A program made the translations under genes and the position numbers. This document shows positions 1 to 64,000 of a stretch of DNA of 64,000 bases, one piece after another (the first letter of the stretch is position 1; every line of letters starts with the position of its first letter). A model generated the notes under the pieces. The model ran no database searches, was not told where the DNA came from, and saw nothing but the letters and a program-made list of their open reading frames with translations. The DNA comes from Prolixibacteraceae bacterium (lineage in GTDB: Bacteria; Bacteroidota; Bacteroidia; Bacteroidales; Prolixibacteraceae): contig JAUWAB010000010.1 of the NCBI GenBank assembly GCA_030602265.1, positions 20,065 through 84,064 on the forward strand. Direction: 5' to 3'.

Positions 1-2835
1 GCCGGTCTTGCCTTTCAAAGCCTCAAGGACTTTGGCTGTGGCAACCTCAGATTCCTTGGCGTTGTCTTTACCGCTCAGCCAGGCTGTGAAAGCCTCTTTC
101 TCTTCTTCGGAAATGCCATTCTGCAAAGCATTCTCCATAATCATGGCAATGCGGTCGCGCTGAGCCTGAACACCTTCCGCCATACCGAAACCATATTCTG
201 CATTATCTTCGAACAAAGAGTTGGCCCATGCCGGTCCGCGACCCGAATCGCTGTTTTTGCGATATGGCGTGGCAGGTGCCGACCCGCCGTAAATCGATGA
301 ACAACCGGTAGCATTGGCAACCATCATCCTCTCGCCGAACAACTGGGTGATCAGTTTGATGTGAGGTGTCTCTCCGCAGCCGGCACAGGCGCCCGAGAAT
401 TCGAAGAGCGGCTGGGCAAACTGTGAATTCTTGACGTTGAGCATCTTGTCGGGCAGGTTCTCCTTGGTTTTGACATTCTTCACCAGGTAATCCCACCTTT
501 CGATTTCGTCGCGCTGGGTATCCAGTGGCACCATTTCGAGCGATTTGACTTTGGAGGGACATACATCGGCACAGTTACCGCAACCAGTACAGTCGAGCAC
601 GCTCACCTGGATCCTGAACTGGAGCCCGGGGAATGTTTTGGTTGGTGTTGCGTCTCTCAGGTCAGTTCCGGCGGGAACGTTCTCTGCTTCTTCCTTCGAA
701 AGGAGGAACGGACGGATGGCAGCGTGAGGACAAACATAGGCACACTGGTTACACTGGATACAGTTATCGGCATGCCACACAGGCACGTTAACCGCTATAC
801 CGCGCTTTTCGTATTCAGCTGTACCTGCTTCAAATGTACCGTCTTCATAGCCGACAAACTTGGAAACCGGCAGAGCATCACCTTTCTGTGCGTTGATCAC
901 ATCAACAAACTGTGTGATGTATTTCGGCCTAAGGGTCTCATCAATTTCATTTTCTTCAATAACAATATCTTTCCACTCAGCAGGAACGTCAACCTTAACT
1001 ACAGCTTCACCGGCATCGATAGCCGCGAAGTTCATGTTGACGATTTGCTCCCCTTTCATGCCATACGATTTAACAACCGCCTTTTTCATTTCCTTAACGG
1101 CCAGATCATAAGGAATAACCCCGGTGATCTTGAAGAAAGCCGACTGCATGATGGTATTGGTGCGGTTACCTAAACCAAGTTCCTCACCGATCTGGGTACC
1201 ATTGATAATATAGAACTGAATATCGTTGCATGCCATATATTTCTTCATATGGTCGGGAAGTCGCTTTTTGGTTTCCTCAACATCCCATATCGAGTTCAGC
1301 AGGAAGGAACCACCCTTTTTGAGGCCTTTGAGCACGTCATACAGATTGATGTATGCCGGAACGTGGCAGGCTACGAAGTCGGGAGTGGTTACGAGGTAAG
1401 TCGAACGGATCGGCTGGTCGCCAAAACGCAGGTGAGAACAGGTAAAACCACCCGATTTTTTGGAGTCATACTGGAAATAACCCTGGCAATATTTGTCGGT
1501 TTCCTCACCGATAATTTTGATGGAGTTTTTGTTGGCACCCACCGTACCATCGGAACCCAGTCCGTAAAACTTAGCCTGGTATGTACCTGCAGGAGAAATA
1601 TCGATTTCCTCTTTCAGTGGCAGCGATTTGAACGTCACATCATCAACAATACCGATGGTAAAGTCGTTCTTGGGTTCATTCCTTTCCAGGTTTTCATACA
1701 CGGCAAGAATCTGAGACGGAGTGGTGTCTTTGGAACCAAGTCCGTAACGTCCGCCAACGATAACCGGGGCATTCTCCCTGTTGTAGAATATGGATTTAAT
1801 GTCCAGCAATAAGGGTTCTCCTTCTGAACCGGGTTCTTTGGCGCGGTCGAGTACGGCAATCCGTTTTACTGATTTCGGGAACACCCTGAAGAAATATTCA
1901 TCGGAAAATGGGCGGAAAAGGTGAACTGCCAACAGACCTACTTTCTTGCCCTGGCTTCTCAGGTAATCAATGGTCTCGCGGATGGTTTCCGTTACAGAAC
2001 CCATTGCCACGATAATATTTTCAGCCTCGGGATCACCATAATAGGTAAACGGATGATACTCACGTCCTGTAATTTTGGTGATTTCGTTCATATAATGCGC
2101 CACGATATCCGGGACTGCATCATAGAAACGGTTACATGCCTCTTTAGCCTGGAAAAAGATATCAGGGTTCTGGGCAGTTCCGCGGGTTACCGGATGCTCC
2201 GGGTTAAGGGCCCTTTCCCTGAACTCCTGAATGGCCTTCATGTCAACGAGAGGTTTTACCTGCTCGGTGGTAAGCATTTCGATCTTCTGCAACTCGTGCG
2301 AAGTACGGAAGCCATCAAAGAACGACACAAAAGGAACCCTGGATTTAAGGGTTGACAAATGGGAAACAGTGGCAATGTCCATCTCCTCCTGCACTGAACC
2401 GGCGGCCAACATGGCAAAACCCGTCTGACGAGCGGCGTAAATGTCGCTGTGGTCTCCAAATATCGACAATGCATGGCCGGCAACGGCCCTGGCACTAACA
2501 TGGAAAACCGTAGGCAACAGTTCACCGGCGATTTTGTACATATTCGGGATCATAAGCAGGAGCCCCTGAGAGGCGGTATAGGTGGTGGTAAGCGCACCCG
2601 ACTGAAGGGCGCCATGCACGGCACCTGCGGCACCCCCTTCACTCTGCATTTCTGCCAGGCGGATCGGCCTGCCGAACATATTGGTCTTACCGTGAGCAGC
2701 CCAGTCATCCACATTTTCAGCCATATTCGACGATGGCGTAATGGGATAAATACAGGCCACTTCACTAAACATGTAACTGATGTGCGACGCAGCATAGTTA
2801 CCATCACATGTAATAAATTTCTTCTCTTTTGACAT
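1..2835 (-). CDS. nifJ: pyruvate:ferredoxin (flavodoxin) oxidoreductase, C-terminus truncated by window edge
   Basis: Minus-strand reading from ATG at 2835 gives MSKEKKFITCDGNYAASHISYMFSEVACIYPITPSSNMAE...; also contains CIQCNQCAYVCPHAAIRPF and CTGCGNCADVCPSK ferredoxin motifs and GACAGCGETPHIKLITQLFG TPP domain. Open to the left edge, so absent from the ORF track. Confidence 0.95.
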   Translation of the reverse strand, partial: MSKEKKFITCDGNYAASHISYMFSEVACIYPITPSSNMAENVDDWAAHGKTNMFGRPIRLAEMQSEGGAAGAVHGALQSGALTTTYTASQGLLLMIPNMYKIAGELLPTVFHVSARAVAGHALSIFGDHSDIYAARQTGFAMLAAGSVQEEMDIATVSHLSTLKSRVPFVSFFDGFRTSHELQKIEMLTTEQVKPLVDMKAIQEFRERALNPEHPVTRGTAQNPDIFFQAKEACNRFYDAVPDIVAHYMNEITKITGREYHPFTYYGDPEAENIIVAMGSVTETIRETIDYLRSQGKKVGLLAVHLFRPFSDEYFFRVFPKSVKRIAVLDRAKEPGSEGEPLLLDIKSIFYNRENAPVIVGGRYGLGSKDTTPSQILAVYENLERNEPKNDFTIGIVDDVTFKSLPLKEEIDISPAGTYQAKFYGLGSDGTVGANKNSIKIIGEETDKYCQGYFQYDSKKSGGFTCSHLRFGDQPIRSTYLVTTPDFVACHVPAYINLYDVLKGLKKGGSFLLNSIWDVEETKKRLPDHMKKYMACNDIQFYIINGTQIGEELGLGNRTNTIMQSAFFKITGVIPYDLAVKEMKKAVVKSYGMKGEQIVNMNFAAIDAGEAVVKVDVPAEWKDIVIEENEIDETLRPKYITQFVDVINAQKGDALPVSKFVGYEDGTFEAGTAEYEKRGIAVNVPVWHADNCIQCNQCAYVCPHAAIRPFLLSKEEAENVPAGTDLRDATPTKTFPGLQFRIQVSVLDCTGCGNCADVCPSKVKSLEMVPLDTQRDEIERWDYLVKNVKTKENLPDKMLNVKNSQFAQPLFEFSGACAGCGETPHIKLITQLFGERMMVANATGCSSIYGGSAPATPYRKNSDSGRGPAWANSLFEDNAEYGFGMAEGVQAQRDRIAMIMENALQNGISEEEKEAFTAWLSGKDNAKESEVATAKVLEALKGKTG

Positions 2836-2882
2836 GACTTTAAGTGATTTGTTTTTATTCTTAATTACTTCTTATTCAAATT

Positions 2883-4058
2883 CTAATAGAGAAAACCGAA
2901 AAGCCAGAGCGGGATCTTGTTCCCTTCTCCTGTTTCAATCATATCGGCTGCTGCGAAAATATCTCCCGAAGGTTCAGTTTTGCGGCCACCAACCAAAAAA
3001 CGGTACTGATGGTCAATCAAAAAATCAGCCCCCGTCGAACTCTTAATATCATGCCTTCCGCTCAGCTGATTTATAAAGAAGGTCTGCCTGAGATTCACCG
3101 AAGAGGTATTTTCGGGCATAATGGCATACAACAGATTGGTATTATGCATATATACCTTGTCCGGCTTTCTGGCTTCATCATCGTCGCCGTTCTGGTACAA
3201 TAAATGGATCAGGCGGGCATTCTTAAGGTATTTCAGATAGTTCATCACCGTTGCCCTGGAGGTCTTTATGGAAGATGCCAGCTTGCTCACATTGGGCGAA
3301 AGCGGCGTTTCCGAGGCTATAATATAAAGCAGTTTCCGGAGTTTGGAGAGATATTTCAGCTCTACCTGGTTGATATAGGGAATGTCAATTTCCAAAGCCA
3401 GGTTTATGTTTTTTAACAAACTATTCTCATAAAAACCTGGATTATCAATAAAATACGGATAATACCCGAATTTCAGATAGTCACTGAAATGAGCCAGGGG
3501 CTTAACTTTATCGACCACTGCCTGGGCTATGGGAATATGACCGGTAAGAATATCATTGAAAGATACTGCGGAAAAAGTCTCCCCTGTCCTGAACTGCAGG
3601 TACTCCCTGAAAGACAGCCCATCCAGATGATATAACTTCACGATACCATTGAGATCCGGATTTTCGTCGGATACCCTCAGTACCGGAGAGGCGGTGAATA
3701 CAATTTTCAGCCCGGGTATCTCATCATGACATTTTCTGAGTTCCTCCGACCAGTCGGGATATTTGTTAACCTGGTCCAGGAGCAACACCTGCCCTCCCCT
3801 TTTGGAAAATTCATCAGCAAAGGAGAAAAGTTTCCGTTTGGTGAAATAAAAGTTATTCAGGTTTATATACAGGACACTGCGGTCGTTGCCAAACTCCCGA
3901 CGGATAAAGTCAAGAATGAAGGTAGTCTTGCCAACTCCCCTGAAACCTTTAATACAGATTAACCGGTGGCTCCAGTCAATCTGTTCACGCAGCTGCCGCC
4001 CGAGTGACTTATCCGGACTATCTATCAGCGAAGCATGTATGTTGTATAAGAATTCCAA
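2883..4058 (-). CDS. AAA family ATPase (AAA_14-like), ATP-binding protein
   Basis: ICIKGFRGVGKTTFI Walker A, GGQVLLLDQVNKYPDW Walker B-like, LSFREYLQF motif typical of AAA_14/DUF4143-type ATPases. Confidence 0.75.
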   Translation of the reverse strand: MEFLYNIHASLIDSPDKSLGRQLREQIDWSHRLICIKGFRGVGKTTFILDFIRREFGNDRSVLYINLNNFYFTKRKLFSFADEFSKRGGQVLLLDQVNKYPDWSEELRKCHDEIPGLKIVFTASPVLRVSDENPDLNGIVKLYHLDGLSFREYLQFRTGETFSAVSFNDILTGHIPIAQAVVDKVKPLAHFSDYLKFGYYPYFIDNPGFYENSLLKNINLALEIDIPYINQVELKYLSKLRKLLYIIASETPLSPNVSKLASSIKTSRATVMNYLKYLKNARLIHLLYQNGDDDEARKPDKVYMHNTNLLYAIMPENTSSVNLRQTFFINQLSGRHDIKSSTGADFLIDHQYRFLVGGRKTEPSGDIFAAADMIETGEGNKIPLWLFGFLY

Positions 4059-4302
4059 AATATCATTTTATGGTGAGAGCAAATTTAACCACTTTATGCA
4101 AATTCCTGTCATGTAGAGATAGCAAAAATTGTTTTTCTCTGTAATTTATAATTAGTAAAAATAACAAGCGGATGCCACTTGTCAAATCCGGCTTATAATT
4201 TTAAAGAGGAACGGGTAAAAAAAGAGGCTGCCGGAAAAGTGAATTTATCTCGTTGAGAATTCGTCATTTGAAAACAGTTCTGTTTGGGTATATACATAAA
4301 AA

Positions 4303-4330
4303 AGGCTGTCCCTGTTCATTGGGACAGCCT
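4303..4330 (-). terminator. intrinsic terminator downstream of rho
   Basis: Perfect stem aggctgtccc/gggacagcct (4303-4312, 4321-4330); on the minus strand it is followed by a T run (aaaaaa at 4298-4303 on plus). Confidence 0.8.
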
Positions 4331-4354
4331 CTGCCTGTATATTACCATTATATT

Positions 4355-6340
4355 TTAAGAATCGGCATTCATGGAAATCAGGAACTCTTCGATAGACCTC
4401 GTCTTCATCAGCCTGTCCTTCATAAAATCCATTGCTTCGAGAGAATTCATGGAACCCAGGAAATTTCTCAGGATCCACATTTTCTCCAGAATATATTTCG
4501 GAAGCAGTAAATCTTCGCGACGTGTACTGGAAGAAGGTATATCCACAGACGGATAAATGCGCTTATTGGAAAGCTTTCTGTCGAGCTGAAGTTCCATATT
4601 ACCTGTACCCTTAAACTCCTCAAAGATCACCTCATCCATTTTGGATCCGGTTTCAGTAAGGGCTGTGGCAAGGATAGTCAAAGAGCCACCTTCTTCAATG
4701 TTACGGGCTGCACCGAAAAACCTTTTCGGCTTCTGAAGGGCATTGGCATCAACCCCACCGGAAAGCACCTTGCCTGAAGCAGGCTGTACGGTATTATACG
4801 CACGGGCCAGACGGGTTATTGAATCGAGCAGAATAACTACATCGTGTCCGCATTCAACCAGGCGCTTTGCTTTCTCCAATACCATACCGGCAACTTTTAC
4901 ATGTCTTTCTGCCGGCTCATCGAATGTTGAGGATACGACTTCGGCATTTACGCTTCTGGCCATATCGGTAACCTCCTCCGGGCGTTCGTCGATCAGAAGT
5001 ACGATCATGTAGACTTCAGGATGGTTTGCAGCAATGGCATTGGCAATTTCCTTGAGCAAAACCGTTTTACCGGTCTTGGGCTGGGCAACAATCAAACCCC
5101 GCTGACCTTTTCCAATCGGAGCAAACATATCGACGATCCGCGTTGAAAGGTTGTCATGCCCTTTGCTGACCAGTTCAAACTTTTCGTTAGGGAAAAGTGG
5201 GGTCAGGTGGTCAAACGGAAGACGGTCACGGATATATTCAGGAGAGCGGCCGTTGATTTCAAGCACCTTGATCAGCGGAAAATATTTCTCACCTTCCTTC
5301 GGCGGACGAATCGTACCCGTAATAGTATCCCCGGTTTTCAGTCCGAAAAGCTTGATCTGCGATTGTGAAACATATATATCATCGGGAGAGTTCAGGTAAT
5401 TAAAGTCTGCTGACCTCAGGAAACCATATCCCTCAGGCATAATTTCAAGTACACCGGCATTTGTGACGATACCGTCGAATTCGTAGTTTTTGTCAAAAAC
5501 GGGAGTTTCCGGTTGTTTCTCGGGCTGTTTCTCGGGTTGCCTGACAGGCGGTTTCTGCTGTTGGTTATCCCGTTTTACCTGCCAGTCAGGCTGCCTCAGC
5601 TTGCGCTGGAACCCGCCCTGGTTTTGCTGTTGCCCGGCATTCTCATTCCGCACAAATTTCTTTCGCTCTTCACCGGAGCGTTCTTCCTGCCTGGGTTTTT
5701 CCCCGACAATCTCATTTTCTTCAGGAGTTTCTGCCCTTTTCTCTGCAAGAGGAGGCACAGGAACGGTTACTTTCTCCGGCTGGGTTTCAACGGCTGGTTT
5801 TTCCACCTTAACAGGAGGAACCAATTCAACGGCGGCTTCTTCTTTCCCTTTTTCCTGGGTATCCCTGATATGGACGGGCTGTCCCGGCTTGTCCTTTGAA
5901 AATTCCTGGATAATGGCTTTCAGCTGTTCACGCCTCGAAAGCTGCTTTACTTCCTGCCTGGGTGCAGGAACCTCCGTAGCAGCCGGTTTTACCGTTTTCT
6001 CCTGGTTGTCTGTCTGCTGAGCCTGAACCGGAGGTTTACCATGAGCAGGCTTGGTGCTCTGCTTGGGTTTTCTGCCTCTCTTATTCCGCGGTGACGAATT
6101 CAGCTCTGAGGGCTCCACCTTACTGAGCTTGGGCGCCTTATCCCTTTTAACAATAGCCGGCTTTGCCCGGTTTTCATCCGGAGAAGTCTTATTCTCTGCA
6201 TTCCTGATCGCCTGGATATCCAAAATCTTATATATCAGATCCTGCTTCTTGAATGATTCTACTCTTTTAATGTTTAACTCTTTGCCAATCTCCCTCAATT
6301 CAGGAAGCAGCTTTTTGCTGAGTTCTAAAATATCATACAT
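4355..6340 (-). CDS. rho: transcription termination factor Rho with long low-complexity N-terminal insertion
   Basis: [75 protein letters not shown]. Confidence 0.97.
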
Positions 6341-58567: not shown

Positions 58568-58599
58568 TAGCCTGATTGGTATTTTTACCAGTCAGGCTA
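58568..58599 (+). terminator. strong hairpin between cas7 and cas4 (terminator or processing element)
   Basis: tagcctgattggta-tttt-taccagtcaggcta: 14-bp stem with one G:T-type pair; no downstream T tract. Confidence 0.6.
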
Positions 58600-58617
58600 C
58601 AAATTTATTATCTCATC

Positions 58618-59130
58618 ATGCTCACCACCGGAACCCATTTCAACTACTACCTCATTTGCCACCGGAAACTCTGGTTGTTTGCAAATGGGATAAGGATGGA
58701 AAATACCTCAGAGTTGGTTTACGAAGGCAAATTAGTGCACGAAACCAGCTACCCGCGGCGTTCGGAGAAGTACCAGGAAATAGAGCTGGATGGCATCAAA
58801 ATCGACTATTACGACCCCAGAAATAAGGTAGTGCACGAAATCAAGAAGTCGGACAAACACGAGGAAGCCCACGAGTGGCAGGTAAAATATTACCTGTTTG
58901 TCCTGGAACAAAACGGAGTTGAAGGTGCTACCGGATTACTCGAATATCCCAGGCTTCACAAGACTGCCGAGGTGTTGTTGACTACTCCCGACCGGGAAGT
59001 CATCCGGGAAATGACATATAACATTGAGAAGATCATCCATCAGGAAAATTGCCCCGACCGGATTTCAAAGTCGCTGTGCAAAAATTGCAGCTATTTCGAT
59101 TTTTGCTGGAGCGGCGAAGAAACCATATAA
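58618..59130 (+). CDS. cas4: CRISPR-associated exonuclease Cas4
   Basis: MLTTGTHFNYYLICHRKLWLFANGIRME, HEIKKSDKHEEAHEWQVKYYLFVLE, C-terminal CKNCSYFDFCW cysteine cluster; start set at ATG 58618. Confidence 0.93.
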   Translation: MLTTGTHFNYYLICHRKLWLFANGIRMENTSELVYEGKLVHETSYPRRSEKYQEIELDGIKIDYYDPRNKVVHEIKKSDKHEEAHEWQVKYYLFVLEQNGVEGATGLLEYPRLHKTAEVLLTTPDREVIREMTYNIEKIIHQENCPDRISKSLCKNCSYFDFCWSGEETI

Positions 59131-59154
59131 AATGTTTCACGTAATAAAATTAGT

Positions 59155-59202
59155 ATGTTACATTTAGTAAGTTACAAAATGTAAGTTATAAAATGTAAGT
59201 TA
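59155..59202. promoter_or_regulatory. iterated palindromic element upstream of ATPase gene
   Basis: tgttacatttagtaagttacaaaatgtaagttataaaatgtaagtta: dyad ttacaaaatgtaa plus direct repeats aaaatgtaagtta at 59176-59188 and 59190-59202. Confidence 0.5.
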
Positions 59203-59215
59203 ATTAAAAATAAGT

Positions 59216-60361
59216 ATGGGAAAAAAGCAATTTGTAAATCCATTTCCGGTGACAACCTATCTCGGCCCTGATTACTTCTGCGACCGGTCAGACGAGACGT
59301 CTCAAATGATCAGCAATATCAGAAACGGAAGTTCGACAACTGTCATCGCACTCAGACGTATTGGTAAAACCGGACTTATTCACCATTTGTTAGGAAAGCT
59401 TCCGCCAGAATGGAAAGGTATTTACATAGATATTCTTGAAACAGAAACCCTGAACCAATTTCTAAACTTGCTTGCAACATCTATAATAACCACTATTCCG
59501 GAAAAAAGCAGTTTAGGCCGTCGCTTCTGGAGCCTGTTGAAGTCGCTGAGACCTGTTATTAGCTATGATGCGCTCACCGGCTCCCCCCAGGCTTCATTCG
59601 ACATTAAAACACACGAGGTCGAGAATAACATCCAGGCCATTCTTCAGTTTCTGGAGAATCAAAAGTTTAAAATCGTTATAGCCATCGATGAGTTTCAGCA
59701 AATAACCCGTTATCCGGAGAAAAACACTGATGCCTGGCTCAGATCAAGGATTCAGCAATTAAAGAACGTGGTCTTCATATTCTCCGGCAGTCAGCAGCAT
59801 CTTATGACCGAGTTGTTCGCTTCGCCGCAGCGGCCTTTTTTCAGAAGTACATTAATTATGAAACTTGAAAAATTGAACCAGGTAGTTTACCGTGACTTTA
59901 TTGTTTCCACTTTTAAAAGGCACAAGAAGATTATCGCTCCGGAGACAGCACAGGAAATGATTGAGTGGACCAACACACACACTTACTATGTACAGCAATT
60001 ATGTAACCGGGTGTTCGCGTCAACAATAAAGGAAGTCACGCCGGAGCTATGGAAACATCAGGCACTCCTGTTACTGAAAGAACAGCAGCCGGTTTTTTTC
60101 ACCCTGCGGAATATGCTTACGAATCCTCAATGGCAAATGCTTAAAGCCATTGCACATGAAAAAATAGTTTATCAGCCAACCGCAAAAGGTTTTTTAACCA
60201 AGTATCATTTGGGGACATCGGCAACTGCTTTGCGCTCGCTAAAAACGTTAACTGGCTATGAGCTTGTAATCAAAGACTTCGACGCTCAAGGAGTTTCGTT
60301 TTACAGTGTTTATGATGTCTTTTTACAACGTTGGGCTGAACTTTCAACACAACAGACATAA
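59216..60361 (+). CDS. ATP-binding protein (ATPase_2/COG1672-like AAA ATPase) inserted between cas4 and cas1
   Basis: TTVIALRRIGKTGLIHHLLG P-loop, KIVIAIDEFQQITRYPE Walker B, VFIFSGSQQHLMTELF sensor, C-terminal winged-helix-like region; stop 3 nt before cas1. Confidence 0.85.
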   Translation: MGKKQFVNPFPVTTYLGPDYFCDRSDETSQMISNIRNGSSTTVIALRRIGKTGLIHHLLGKLPPEWKGIYIDILETETLNQFLNLLATSIITTIPEKSSLGRRFWSLLKSLRPVISYDALTGSPQASFDIKTHEVENNIQAILQFLENQKFKIVIAIDEFQQITRYPEKNTDAWLRSRIQQLKNVVFIFSGSQQHLMTELFASPQRPFFRSTLIMKLEKLNQVVYRDFIVSTFKRHKKIIAPETAQEMIEWTNTHTYYVQQLCNRVFASTIKEVTPELWKHQALLLLKEQQPVFFTLRNMLTNPQWQMLKAIAHEKIVYQPTAKGFLTKYHLGTSATALRSLKTLTGYELVIKDFDAQGVSFYSVYDVFLQRWAELSTQQT

Positions 60362-60364
60362 CCA

Positions 60365-61369
60365 ATGAAGAAAACCTATTACCTGCTCAATCCCGGGCGC
60401 TTGCAACGGAAAGACAATACCTTAAAATTTACACCTTTCGACGAAGAGGGAAAGGAGGAAAAGCCACGTTTCCTGCCGGTTGAAAATGTAGGTGAGTTGT
60501 ATTGTTTCGGGGCTCTTGATGCCAATTCGGCGTTGTATAATTTTCTGGGACAAGAACAGATACCGGTCCATTTTTTTGATTACTACGAAAACTACACCGG
60601 ATCATTTATGCCCCGGGAATCGTTGATCTCAGGAAAAATGCTGATAGCCCAGGTCAAGTTCCAGCAAAACATGAGAAAACGGATAGATTTGGCCCAACGC
60701 ATACTTGAAGGGGCAAGCCATAATATGCTGAAAAACCTGAAGTATTATAACAGCCGGGGGAAAGACCTCATGCCTCTGATTGAAACTATTGAAGATCTGG
60801 AAAAGAAAATTCCGCTGACGAAATCAATTCCGGAGTTAATGGGGATCGAAGGGAATATCCGGAAAAATTATTACGACGCTTTCAATCTCATTATAAATGA
60901 CTTTACCATGGGCAGGCGTAGTTATCAGCCGCCACTCAGTGAAATTAATGCGCTTATCTCGTTTGGGAACATGATGTGTTACAGTCAGTGTTTGAAAGCC
61001 ATTCACCAAACCCAACTCCATCCGGCCATCAGCTTCCTTCACGAGCCAGGCGAGCGCAGGTTTTCTTTTTCGCTGGATGTAGCCGAAATATTTAAACCAC
61101 TTCTGGTTGACCGGACCATATTTAAGGTAACCAATAAGAAAATGATCCAGCTGCATCATTTTGAAGAAAACCTGAACCGGATAATTCTTAAATCCAATGG
61201 CAGGAAAACATTTATTGAGGCGTTTGAAGAACGGTTGAACGAAACCATCGCGCACCGGACGCTTAACCGCTCCGTCAGTTACAAGCATCTGATCAAGCTG
61301 GAGTGTTACAAAATCCAGAAGCATTTATTGGAAATTGAAGAATACAAACCGTTTAAAATGTGGTGGTGA
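60365..61369 (+). CDS. cas1: CRISPR-associated endonuclease Cas1 (I-B-like)
   Basis: [81 protein letters not shown]. Confidence 0.96.
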
Positions 61370-61632
61370 TGTACATAATCGCGATGTATGACGTAGGCGA
61401 AAAACGGGTAGGCAAAATGCTCAGGCTCTTCAGGAGGTATCTGAACTGGATACAGAATTCAGTATTTGAAGGAGAAATCAGCGAGGCTAAACTTTTGGAA
61501 CTCAAATATAAGTCACTTGAGATAATGGATGCTGAAACCGATAGTCTGATTATTTTCAAAACGAGGCAGGAGAAATGGCTCGACAAGGAAATTGTTGGCA
61601 AAGAAAGGCAAACGCTCGATACATTTTTGTAG
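61369..61632 (+). CDS. cas2: CRISPR-associated endonuclease Cas2
   Basis: [47 protein letters not shown] overlap with cas1 stop. Confidence 0.96.
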   Translation: MYIIAMYDVGEKRVGKMLRLFRRYLNWIQNSVFEGEISEAKLLELKYKSLEIMDAETDSLIIFKTRQEKWLDKEIVGKERQTLDTFL

Positions 61633-61856: not shown

Positions 61857-63963
61857 CTATCAATCGTACCAGCGTGGAATTGAAACATTTCAATGCGTAT
61901 CCATGTGCTGTTTGCAGATGGCCTATCAATCGTACCAGCGTGGAATTGAAACTAGATGCATCCGGTTTGTTCAGGTAACGTTCATGCCTATCAATCGTAC
62001 CAGCGTGGAATTGAAACCTTTCATGTTTCACTGTCATGACATTATCCCAACATTCTATCAATCGTACCAGCGTGGAATTGAAACATAGTCGGCGGGTACT
62101 TCTGTTGCGCCCTGAGTGCTATCAATCGTACCAGCGTGGAATTGAAACATGATAATATGGAATGCACAGATGTGTGTTATGACCTATCAATCGTACCAGC
62201 GTGGAATTGAAACGGGCGACGTGGGCCTGGGGATCGAGTTCCCGGTAACTATCAATCGTACCAGCGTGGAATTGAAACATGCCTGCAAGTTCACCGCCAT
62301 GAAATATTCCCACTATCAATCGTACCAGCGTGGAATTGAAACTGTAACGAAAGCCGCGCACCAGGCATACCCTTCAGCTATCAATCGTACCAGCGTGGAA
62401 TTGAAACATCTGGCGACCAGGCCGATTCCGGGTTGGGAATATTCTATCAATCGTACCAGCGTGGAATTGAAACCGGTTAAGCCGGTGCCATCGTTGTAAC
62501 AGATCGTACTATCAATCGTACCAGCGTGGAATTGAAACGCAGTATCGACTGATAAAATTGCTTGGAGAGTGGGACTATCAATCGTACCAGCGTGGAATTG
62601 AAACGATAAACATTTACGCAGATTGTTCGATTCTTTCCCCTATCAATCGTACCAGCGTGGAATTGAAACCCGAGATCCTGGCCGATCTGGTGGCCACCCT
62701 CAACTATCAATCGTACCAGCGTGGAATTGAAACAGCAGACTTATAAGAATATCCAGTCATCGATCAACTATCAATCGTACCAGCGTGGAATTGAAACCGA
62801 AAGCGATGATGTACTCTGTTAATCCACGCCACTATCAATCGTACCAGCGTGGAATTGAAACAGAAAAGTTTGATGCACAAGGTGATACCGTATTAAACTA
62901 TCAATCGTACCAGCGTGGAATTGAAACTTGAACCAGAGAATTCTTTTTTTGCTGGGGTTTACTATCAATCGTACCAGCGTGGAATTGAAACTTGAACCCG
63001 CTGGCTGTTGCGAAAGCTGCTGCTAACTATCAATCGTACCAGCGTGGAATTGAAACTTACTACAATCGACATATCATTACTTCCCTACTGCTATCAATCG
63101 TACCAGCGTGGAATTGAAACTTATGAAGCTGATGGCATCTCCGCCTTTGCCGCATCTATCAATCGTACCAGCGTGGAATTGAAACTCGATCCATTGATCC
63201 AGGTGCGGAGCGGTGCCGGCTATCAATCGTACCAGCGTGGAATTGAAACTGAGGACGTCGGGAATTTGACCGGGTGGCGGAATTCTATCAATCGTACCAG
63301 CGTGGAATTGAAACAAAAGCAGGCTGCTGTCATACCGTTCTGGGCGCTCTATCAATCGTACCAGCGTGGAATTGAAACCCAGGCACCTCTATATATTATA
63401 TTACCTGGATCCCTATCAATCGTACCAGCGTGGAATTGAAACTCGATCCATTGATCCAGGTGCGGAGCGGTGCCGGGCTATCAATCGTACCAGCGTGGAA
63501 TTGAAACCCCTGGGGGCGACGTATGTACTGAAGGATCATAACTATCAATCGTACCAGCGTGGAATTGAAACATATTTCACATCGAGGGAATGAATGCGAA
63601 AAGGCTCTATCAATCGTACCAGCGTGGAATTGAAACATGACGCTATGATTCTGATATCCCAGGGACTTGGCTATCAATCGTACCAGCGTGGAATTGAAAC
63701 ATATACACTCGATAGAACCTGATTCTGTTTTGGATCTATCAATCGTACCAGCGTGGAATTGAAACTATCGATGAATATCGTAACGATATCGAGATGGAAA
63801 ACTATCAATCGTACCAGCGTGGAATTGAAACTTGTAACCGATCCCGACCCGGTTATAGTCGTAAATGCTATCAATCGTACCAGCGTGGAATTGAAACAAT
63901 TTATCAGTCATTTTATTAACCGAAAAACTTGCTCTATCAATCGTACCAGCGTGGAATTGAAAC
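61857..63963 (+). CRISPR. CRISPR array, 33 repeats of ctatcaatcgtaccagcgtggaattgaaac (30 bp), 32 complete spacers of 34-37 bp, open at right edge
   Basis: Repeats read by eye as identical, starting at 61857, 61923, 61988, 62055, 62119 ... 63868, 63934; the final 37 nt (63964-64000) are spacer plus what may be the first base of the next repeat. Confidence 0.99.
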
Positions 63964-64000
63964 TTAGGCACTATTGTTTTAGATGACCTTTGGAACGCTC

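Follow-up and report, generated by a model that had tools for sequence, protein, structure and literature searches.

A self-regulated, DNA-binding switch that resembles Orc1/Cdc6, rather than a spacer-capture enzyme, is the most likely identity of the AAA+ ATPase encoded between cas4 and cas1 in a type I-B CRISPR locus of a Prolixibacteraceae bacterium, and its putative control site and recurrent position before cas1 suggest on/off switching of CRISPR memory formation. On balance, we lean towards a regulatory cassette that controls its own promoter and, when situated upstream of cas1, cas1-cas2 as well. The window, i.e., the whole analyzed stretch of 64,000 nucleotides, contains a complete I-B locus from cas6 to the array, as established by profile searches and PADLOC, with the following features:

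From 51617: WYL regulator, at the upstream end of the I-B locus
From 52807: cas6
From 53474: cas5
From 54019: cas3
From 56173: cas8b
From 57498: cas7
58576 to 59130, + strand: cas4 (PF01930, 183.5 bits; PADLOC Cas4b), stop codon at 59128-59130, true start likely near 58618
59158 to 59198, + strand: putative operator array, three tandem 13-bp palindromes with a 14-bp period (TTACATTTAGTAA, TTACAAAATGTAA, TTATAAAATGTAA; units at 59158-59170, 59172-59184 and 59186-59198)
59201 to 59208, + strand: position of the putative -7 box, TAATTAAA in the window
59216 to 60361, + strand: AAA+ ATPase of the ATPase_2 family with a C-terminal winged helix, 381 aa
59354 to 59371, + strand: P-loop RRIGKT (residues 47-52), from the alignment of 74 homologs
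59684 to 59692, + strand: Walker B IDE (residues 157-159), from the same alignment
60218 to 60256, + strand: predicted recognition helix of the winged helix (residues 335-347), from AlphaFold2 (pLDDT about 97) and arm covariation
60365 to 61369, + strand: cas1 (cas1b, I-B; TIGR03641, 451 bits), ATG 3 nt past the ATPase stop
61360 to 61632, + strand: cas2 (PF09827, 72.4 bits)
61857 to 64000, + strand: CRISPR array with a 30-nt repeat, 33 copies up to the window end, where it runs off

The original prediction, an open reading frame between cas4 and cas1 whose stop codon precedes cas1 by 3 nt, was borne out, and its premise that cas4 and cas1 are normally contiguous also holds, since most of 77 related I-B loci show either a 4-nt overlap or a spacing below 210 bp between the two genes. 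Within the window array, the repeat-spacer units at 63156-63219 and 63413-63476 are identical, so that one spacer occurs twice.

The ATPase exceeds the curated cut-off of Pfam ATPase_2 (PF01637; 34.7 vs 33.2 bits), and homologs reach 42.6 bits (L120) and 39.3 bits (L071). The P-loop (RRIGKTG, residues 47-53) and Walker B motif that had been read from the sequence are nearly invariant across the 74 homologs; in the Walker A motif of the window copy (ALRRIGKT), Ala takes the place of the consensus first Gly. AlphaFold2 modeling with these 74 homologs as input (mean pLDDT 96) yielded an AAA+ core followed by a C-terminal winged helix, in which residues 335-347 form the predicted recognition helix and residues 351-355 and 361-365 the wing strands; this is the architecture that, together with Walker A and B, characterizes ATPase_2 proteins. 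The closest solved structures are the archaeal ATPases 2qen and 2fna, followed by Orc1/Cdc6 on origin DNA (2qby_A, E 1.8e-11, TM about 0.55), with TnsC and RuvB ranking lower. The two archaeal proteins, PABY2304 (2qen) and SSO1545 (2fna), belong to the same family by Pfam score and likewise combine AAA+ and winged helix; their structures were deposited without a named function, whereas the window ATPase has an iterated operator and a cas1 neighborhood. Orc1/Cdc6 initiators (fold matches 2qby, 2v1u) share the fold and the winged helix and bind repeated DNA sites; in contrast, their identity to the window ATPase is about 12%, and the predicted sites of the latter lie at a promoter. Searches of the window ATPase by profiles and structure found no nuclease or toxin domain, and profile searches and PADLOC matched no CARF domain. 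The window copy was the sole homolog found in its own genome, and plasmid and phage searches returned distant relatives only.

Among the upstream regions read, nearly all ATPase homologs are preceded by tandem palindromes. In a period scan of 120 upstream regions, 81 (67.5%) scored above the 95th percentile of the 612 controls, and in 78 of them the period was exactly 14 bp; the window array scored 24 against a control 95th percentile of 11.5. Under a stricter definition, which requires two or more 13-bp palindromes with a spacing of 14 bp, the array was present in 91 of 113 homologs, compared with 4.4% of shuffles, and as a sequence pattern it is a new finding. The four-base palindrome arms vary among homologs (TTAC, ATAC, ACGC, ACAC, TAAC, ATCT and others). 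In 61 of these 91 homologs (8% in shuffles), a TAnnTTTG box, the -7 box of Bacteroidota promoters, is located no more than 75 nt from the ATG. From the end of the last clear palindrome down to this box, the distance is 16-18 nt in 30 cases and 2 nt in 11, values that differ by one palindrome unit. The box of the window copy has drifted, reading TAATTAAA vs TAATTTTG in L062/L063 and TATCTTTG in L102; it is probably decayed and the copy's own promoter weak, and cas1-cas2 are therefore probably read through from upstream. In a genome-wide pattern search, matches to the operator unit with 0-1 mismatch were confined to the window array, and other matches (2-3 mismatches) occurred at about control level; the operator being one of a kind in this genome, any control through it would be local.

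Variation in the arms points to the ATPase itself as the operator binder. After removal of whole-protein distance, arm differences correlate best with protein windows 329-346, which rank first among about 182, and none of the 500 permutations, which leave relatedness in place, reached the observed value. This segment corresponds to helix 335-347 and a wing in the AlphaFold2 model; a comparison of whole domains, winged helix vs ATPase, failed to separate them for operator covariation. The earlier suggestion of an accessory factor is thus supported in its regulatory part, as operator arms co-vary with the recognition helix. Its other parts, spacer-capture remodelling and toxin-like control, found no support, given the lack of a nuclease or toxin domain and the absence of the operator motif from the CRISPR leader of the window locus.

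We hypothesize that the cassette is self-contained and consists of an operator-promoter and an Orc1/Cdc6-like AAA+ protein that ends in a winged helix. The ATPase would bind the tandem 13-bp palindromes ahead of its own gene and control its own promoter, most likely as a repressor and in an ATP-dependent manner. Because the gene lies directly upstream of cas1, transcripts from the ATPase promoter would continue into cas1-cas2 and place the adaptation genes under the same control; in the window, where read-through from the cas promoter is probable, the bound array may act as a roadblock. We infer the binding, the sign of control, the ATP dependence, the signal and any benefit to CRISPR. L288 and L293 carry a second matching array between ATPase and cas1, through which cas1 could be controlled directly. 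A further 5 of 90 homologs are flanked by matching arrays; in the window, none lies 3' of the ATPase.

The ATPase occupies the I-B cas4-cas1 gap in the window and in G060 (77% identity), L102 (72%), G027 (54%) and G030 (52%), and the effector set of L102 differs from that of the window (cas3 30% identical). In other Bacteroidota, type II loci have homologs of another clade, with cas9 on one side and cas1 on the other (L118, L120, L281, L283, L288, L293); Cas1, Cas2 or Cas9 is confirmed by PADLOC models in L118, L120, L281, L283, L139 and L119. Altogether, an ATPase adjoins cas1 in five genomes with I-B loci and in eight or more loci of type II. In L119, the ATPase is divergent from cas1-cas2 and no cas9 lies within the DNA read. 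An earlier picture of a purely I-B, mostly solitary family was discarded: it came from an I-B Cas1 query, and reading the neighbors revealed divergent type II Cas1.

For an estimate on an unselected set, 395 genomes of the class were searched for ATPase and cas1 alike rather than chosen by cas1, which gave 98 ATPases and about 150 cas1 matches. Six ATPases lie immediately 5' of cas1; with the window left out, 5 of 97 remain against a chance expectation of 0.011, a figure that assumes about 3300 genes per genome. These five are all type II and related to each other, hence not five independent events. Since the I-B and type II groups are separate in the trees, with free homologs in and around both, the association with cas1 probably arose at least twice. 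The counter-scenario of solitary homologs plus an insertion unique to one strain is true of its first half, as about 90% of sampled homologs lie away from cas1; the cas1 position itself recurs in both types. The ATPase is present in 5 of 77 I-B loci and does not show the consistent presence within a subtype that marks core Cas proteins. No published description of an ATPase-cas1 association was found in the open-licence literature. Another tight co-directional pairing exists in the family: in one group of relatives (L065-L070 and L072-L074), the ATPase ends 2-10 nt before a gene that, judged by eye, resembles lipoate-protein ligase.

The ATPase is maintained by purifying selection, whether or not the CRISPR locus is intact. 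Between the window and L062, pN is 0.135 and pS 0.763 (pN/pS about 0.18), near the values for cas1 of the same pair (0.104 and 0.802). In L134, L285 and L290, an intact ATPase adjoins decayed cas genes, and the comparison of L134 with L285 gave pN 0.121 and pS 0.723.

The main rival, which we regard as doubtful yet worth weighing, treats the ATPase as a hot-spot passenger. In this view, a single-gene cassette, mobile or selfish, regulates itself alone and lands in the cas4-cas1 and cas9-cas1 gaps, where it is tolerated and leaves adaptation unaffected. It stands because the gap takes unrelated passengers and the ATPase has been lost in near relatives. The cas4-cas1 gap exceeds 300 bp in 22 of the 77 I-B loci with both genes, and most of these large gaps hold other genes: ten contain a 23S_rRNA_IVP four-helix gene and five a GxxExxY (PDDEXK_3) gene, compared with five for the ATPase, besides others. 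Among genomes with close Cas1, G060 carries the ATPase, G097 no gene and G023 a four-helix gene. In the Cas1 tree, the sister of the window is G025, whose gap of 105 bp retains about 55 bp of an ATPase 3' end (scores 43-53, reached by 0 of 2000 shuffles; 53 vs at most 36 in a panel test), and the gene was therefore once there and then lost. This loss with cas4, cas1 and cas2 kept, and the lack of the ATPase in G097, count against the switch, as do the large share of homologs away from cas1, the degenerate -7 box of the window and the intact ATPases next to decayed cas genes. Candidate scars in L202, L028 and other gaps were not clearly above shuffles, and only L004/G025 was accepted; in L207, the score slightly exceeded shuffles (53 vs 48).

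In 25 genomes of the family, four-helix genes lie in the cas4-cas1 gap in 6 of 177 copies, itself far above chance, and ATPases in 4 of 21. The four-helix control points to a general hot spot, so enrichment alone is no proof of ATPase function and its weight as support is reduced. Against the passenger, the per-copy rate of the ATPase is higher than that of the four-helix gene (P 0.013; 3 of 20, P 0.053, with the window left out), the type II clade retains the cas1-adjoining ATPase across several families, and neither a transposase nor a target duplication nor clearly defined ends were found. On the other side, matching arrays flank the ATPase like element ends in L119, L123, L138 and L155, and a free relative (75%) is nested within the cas-linked clade; since L123, a free copy, likewise has an array downstream, such arrays may be element ends instead of a means to control cas1 directly.

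Other inhabitants of these loci have repeats of their own. Four-helix genes occupy the cas4-cas1 gaps of L005, L009, L014, L016, L017, L027, L201, L209 and L217, most with low-complexity short tandem repeats on either side, inverted between sides (e.g., GATTGA.. upstream and ..TCAATC downstream), like a stem cuttable from RNA. GxxExxY (PDDEXK_3) genes with their own repeats nearby lie in the cas4-cas1 gaps of L008, L030, L197, L212 and L189, and four-helix passengers occur in the cas1-cas2 gap of L016, L186, L210, L212 and L214. A CRISPR-like array in L294 (3484-5746) was rejected as a long tandem repeat of about 120 bp, a mimic in simple repeat searches.

ATPase_2 proteins are related to STAND NTPases. 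That the ATPase is a stand-alone STAND-type defence sensor riding by chance in defence loci is nevertheless improbable: it has matches to the PADLOC candidates PDC-S27 and PDC-S01 and, in L071 only, to nSTAND6 below threshold (22.2 vs 27.7 bits), but every match is weak, there is no effector domain, and homolog neighbors, judged by eye, are mostly housekeeping or unknown rather than defence genes. About equally improbable is a direct role in helping Cas1-Cas2 to capture, trim or place spacers, like Cas4, Csn2 or IHF: although the cas-linked ATPase always adjoins cas1-cas2, in two CRISPR types, and L139 and L119 combine ATPase, cas1-cas2 and an array without cas9 in the DNA read, the gene is patchy and lost in close relatives, no cas gene lies near most homologs, the leader is without the operator motif, and the protein is without a nuclease domain.

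For the self-regulated switch, the closest functional parallel is Csa3a, a Sulfolobus DNA-binding regulator whose gene adjoins the adaptation genes that it controls, according to its description (PMC4333418). Csa3a belongs to the CARF family and acts as a MarR-like activator, unlike the present protein, which has a P-loop ATPase and no CARF domain. A deep clustering survey linked genes of other function to adaptation modules; those mentioned in the main text include RNase H, DNA polymerase and membrane genes, among others, but no ATPase_2 gene (PMC10910872). L139 is a counter-case to the switch: at 99-5304, the ATPase lies between a 34-repeat array and a convergent cas2-cas1, an arrangement in which the ATPase operator is not upstream of cas1; the 14 kb read contain no cas9. 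More tentatively, I-B loci and type II loci may each have independently recruited a dedicated Orc1/Cdc6-like ATPase switch to a fixed position before cas1, where it would gate expression of the adaptation genes through an evolving palindromic operator.

How spacer acquisition, which carries a risk of self-immunity, is limited is poorly understood for most CRISPR types. If the regulatory reading is true, an operator-bearing ATPase that separates the effector genes from those for adaptation would offer a simple means of uncoupling memory from interference, and arms that track a single helix would provide a testable code for a large, seemingly uncharacterized group of Bacteroidota AAA+ proteins.
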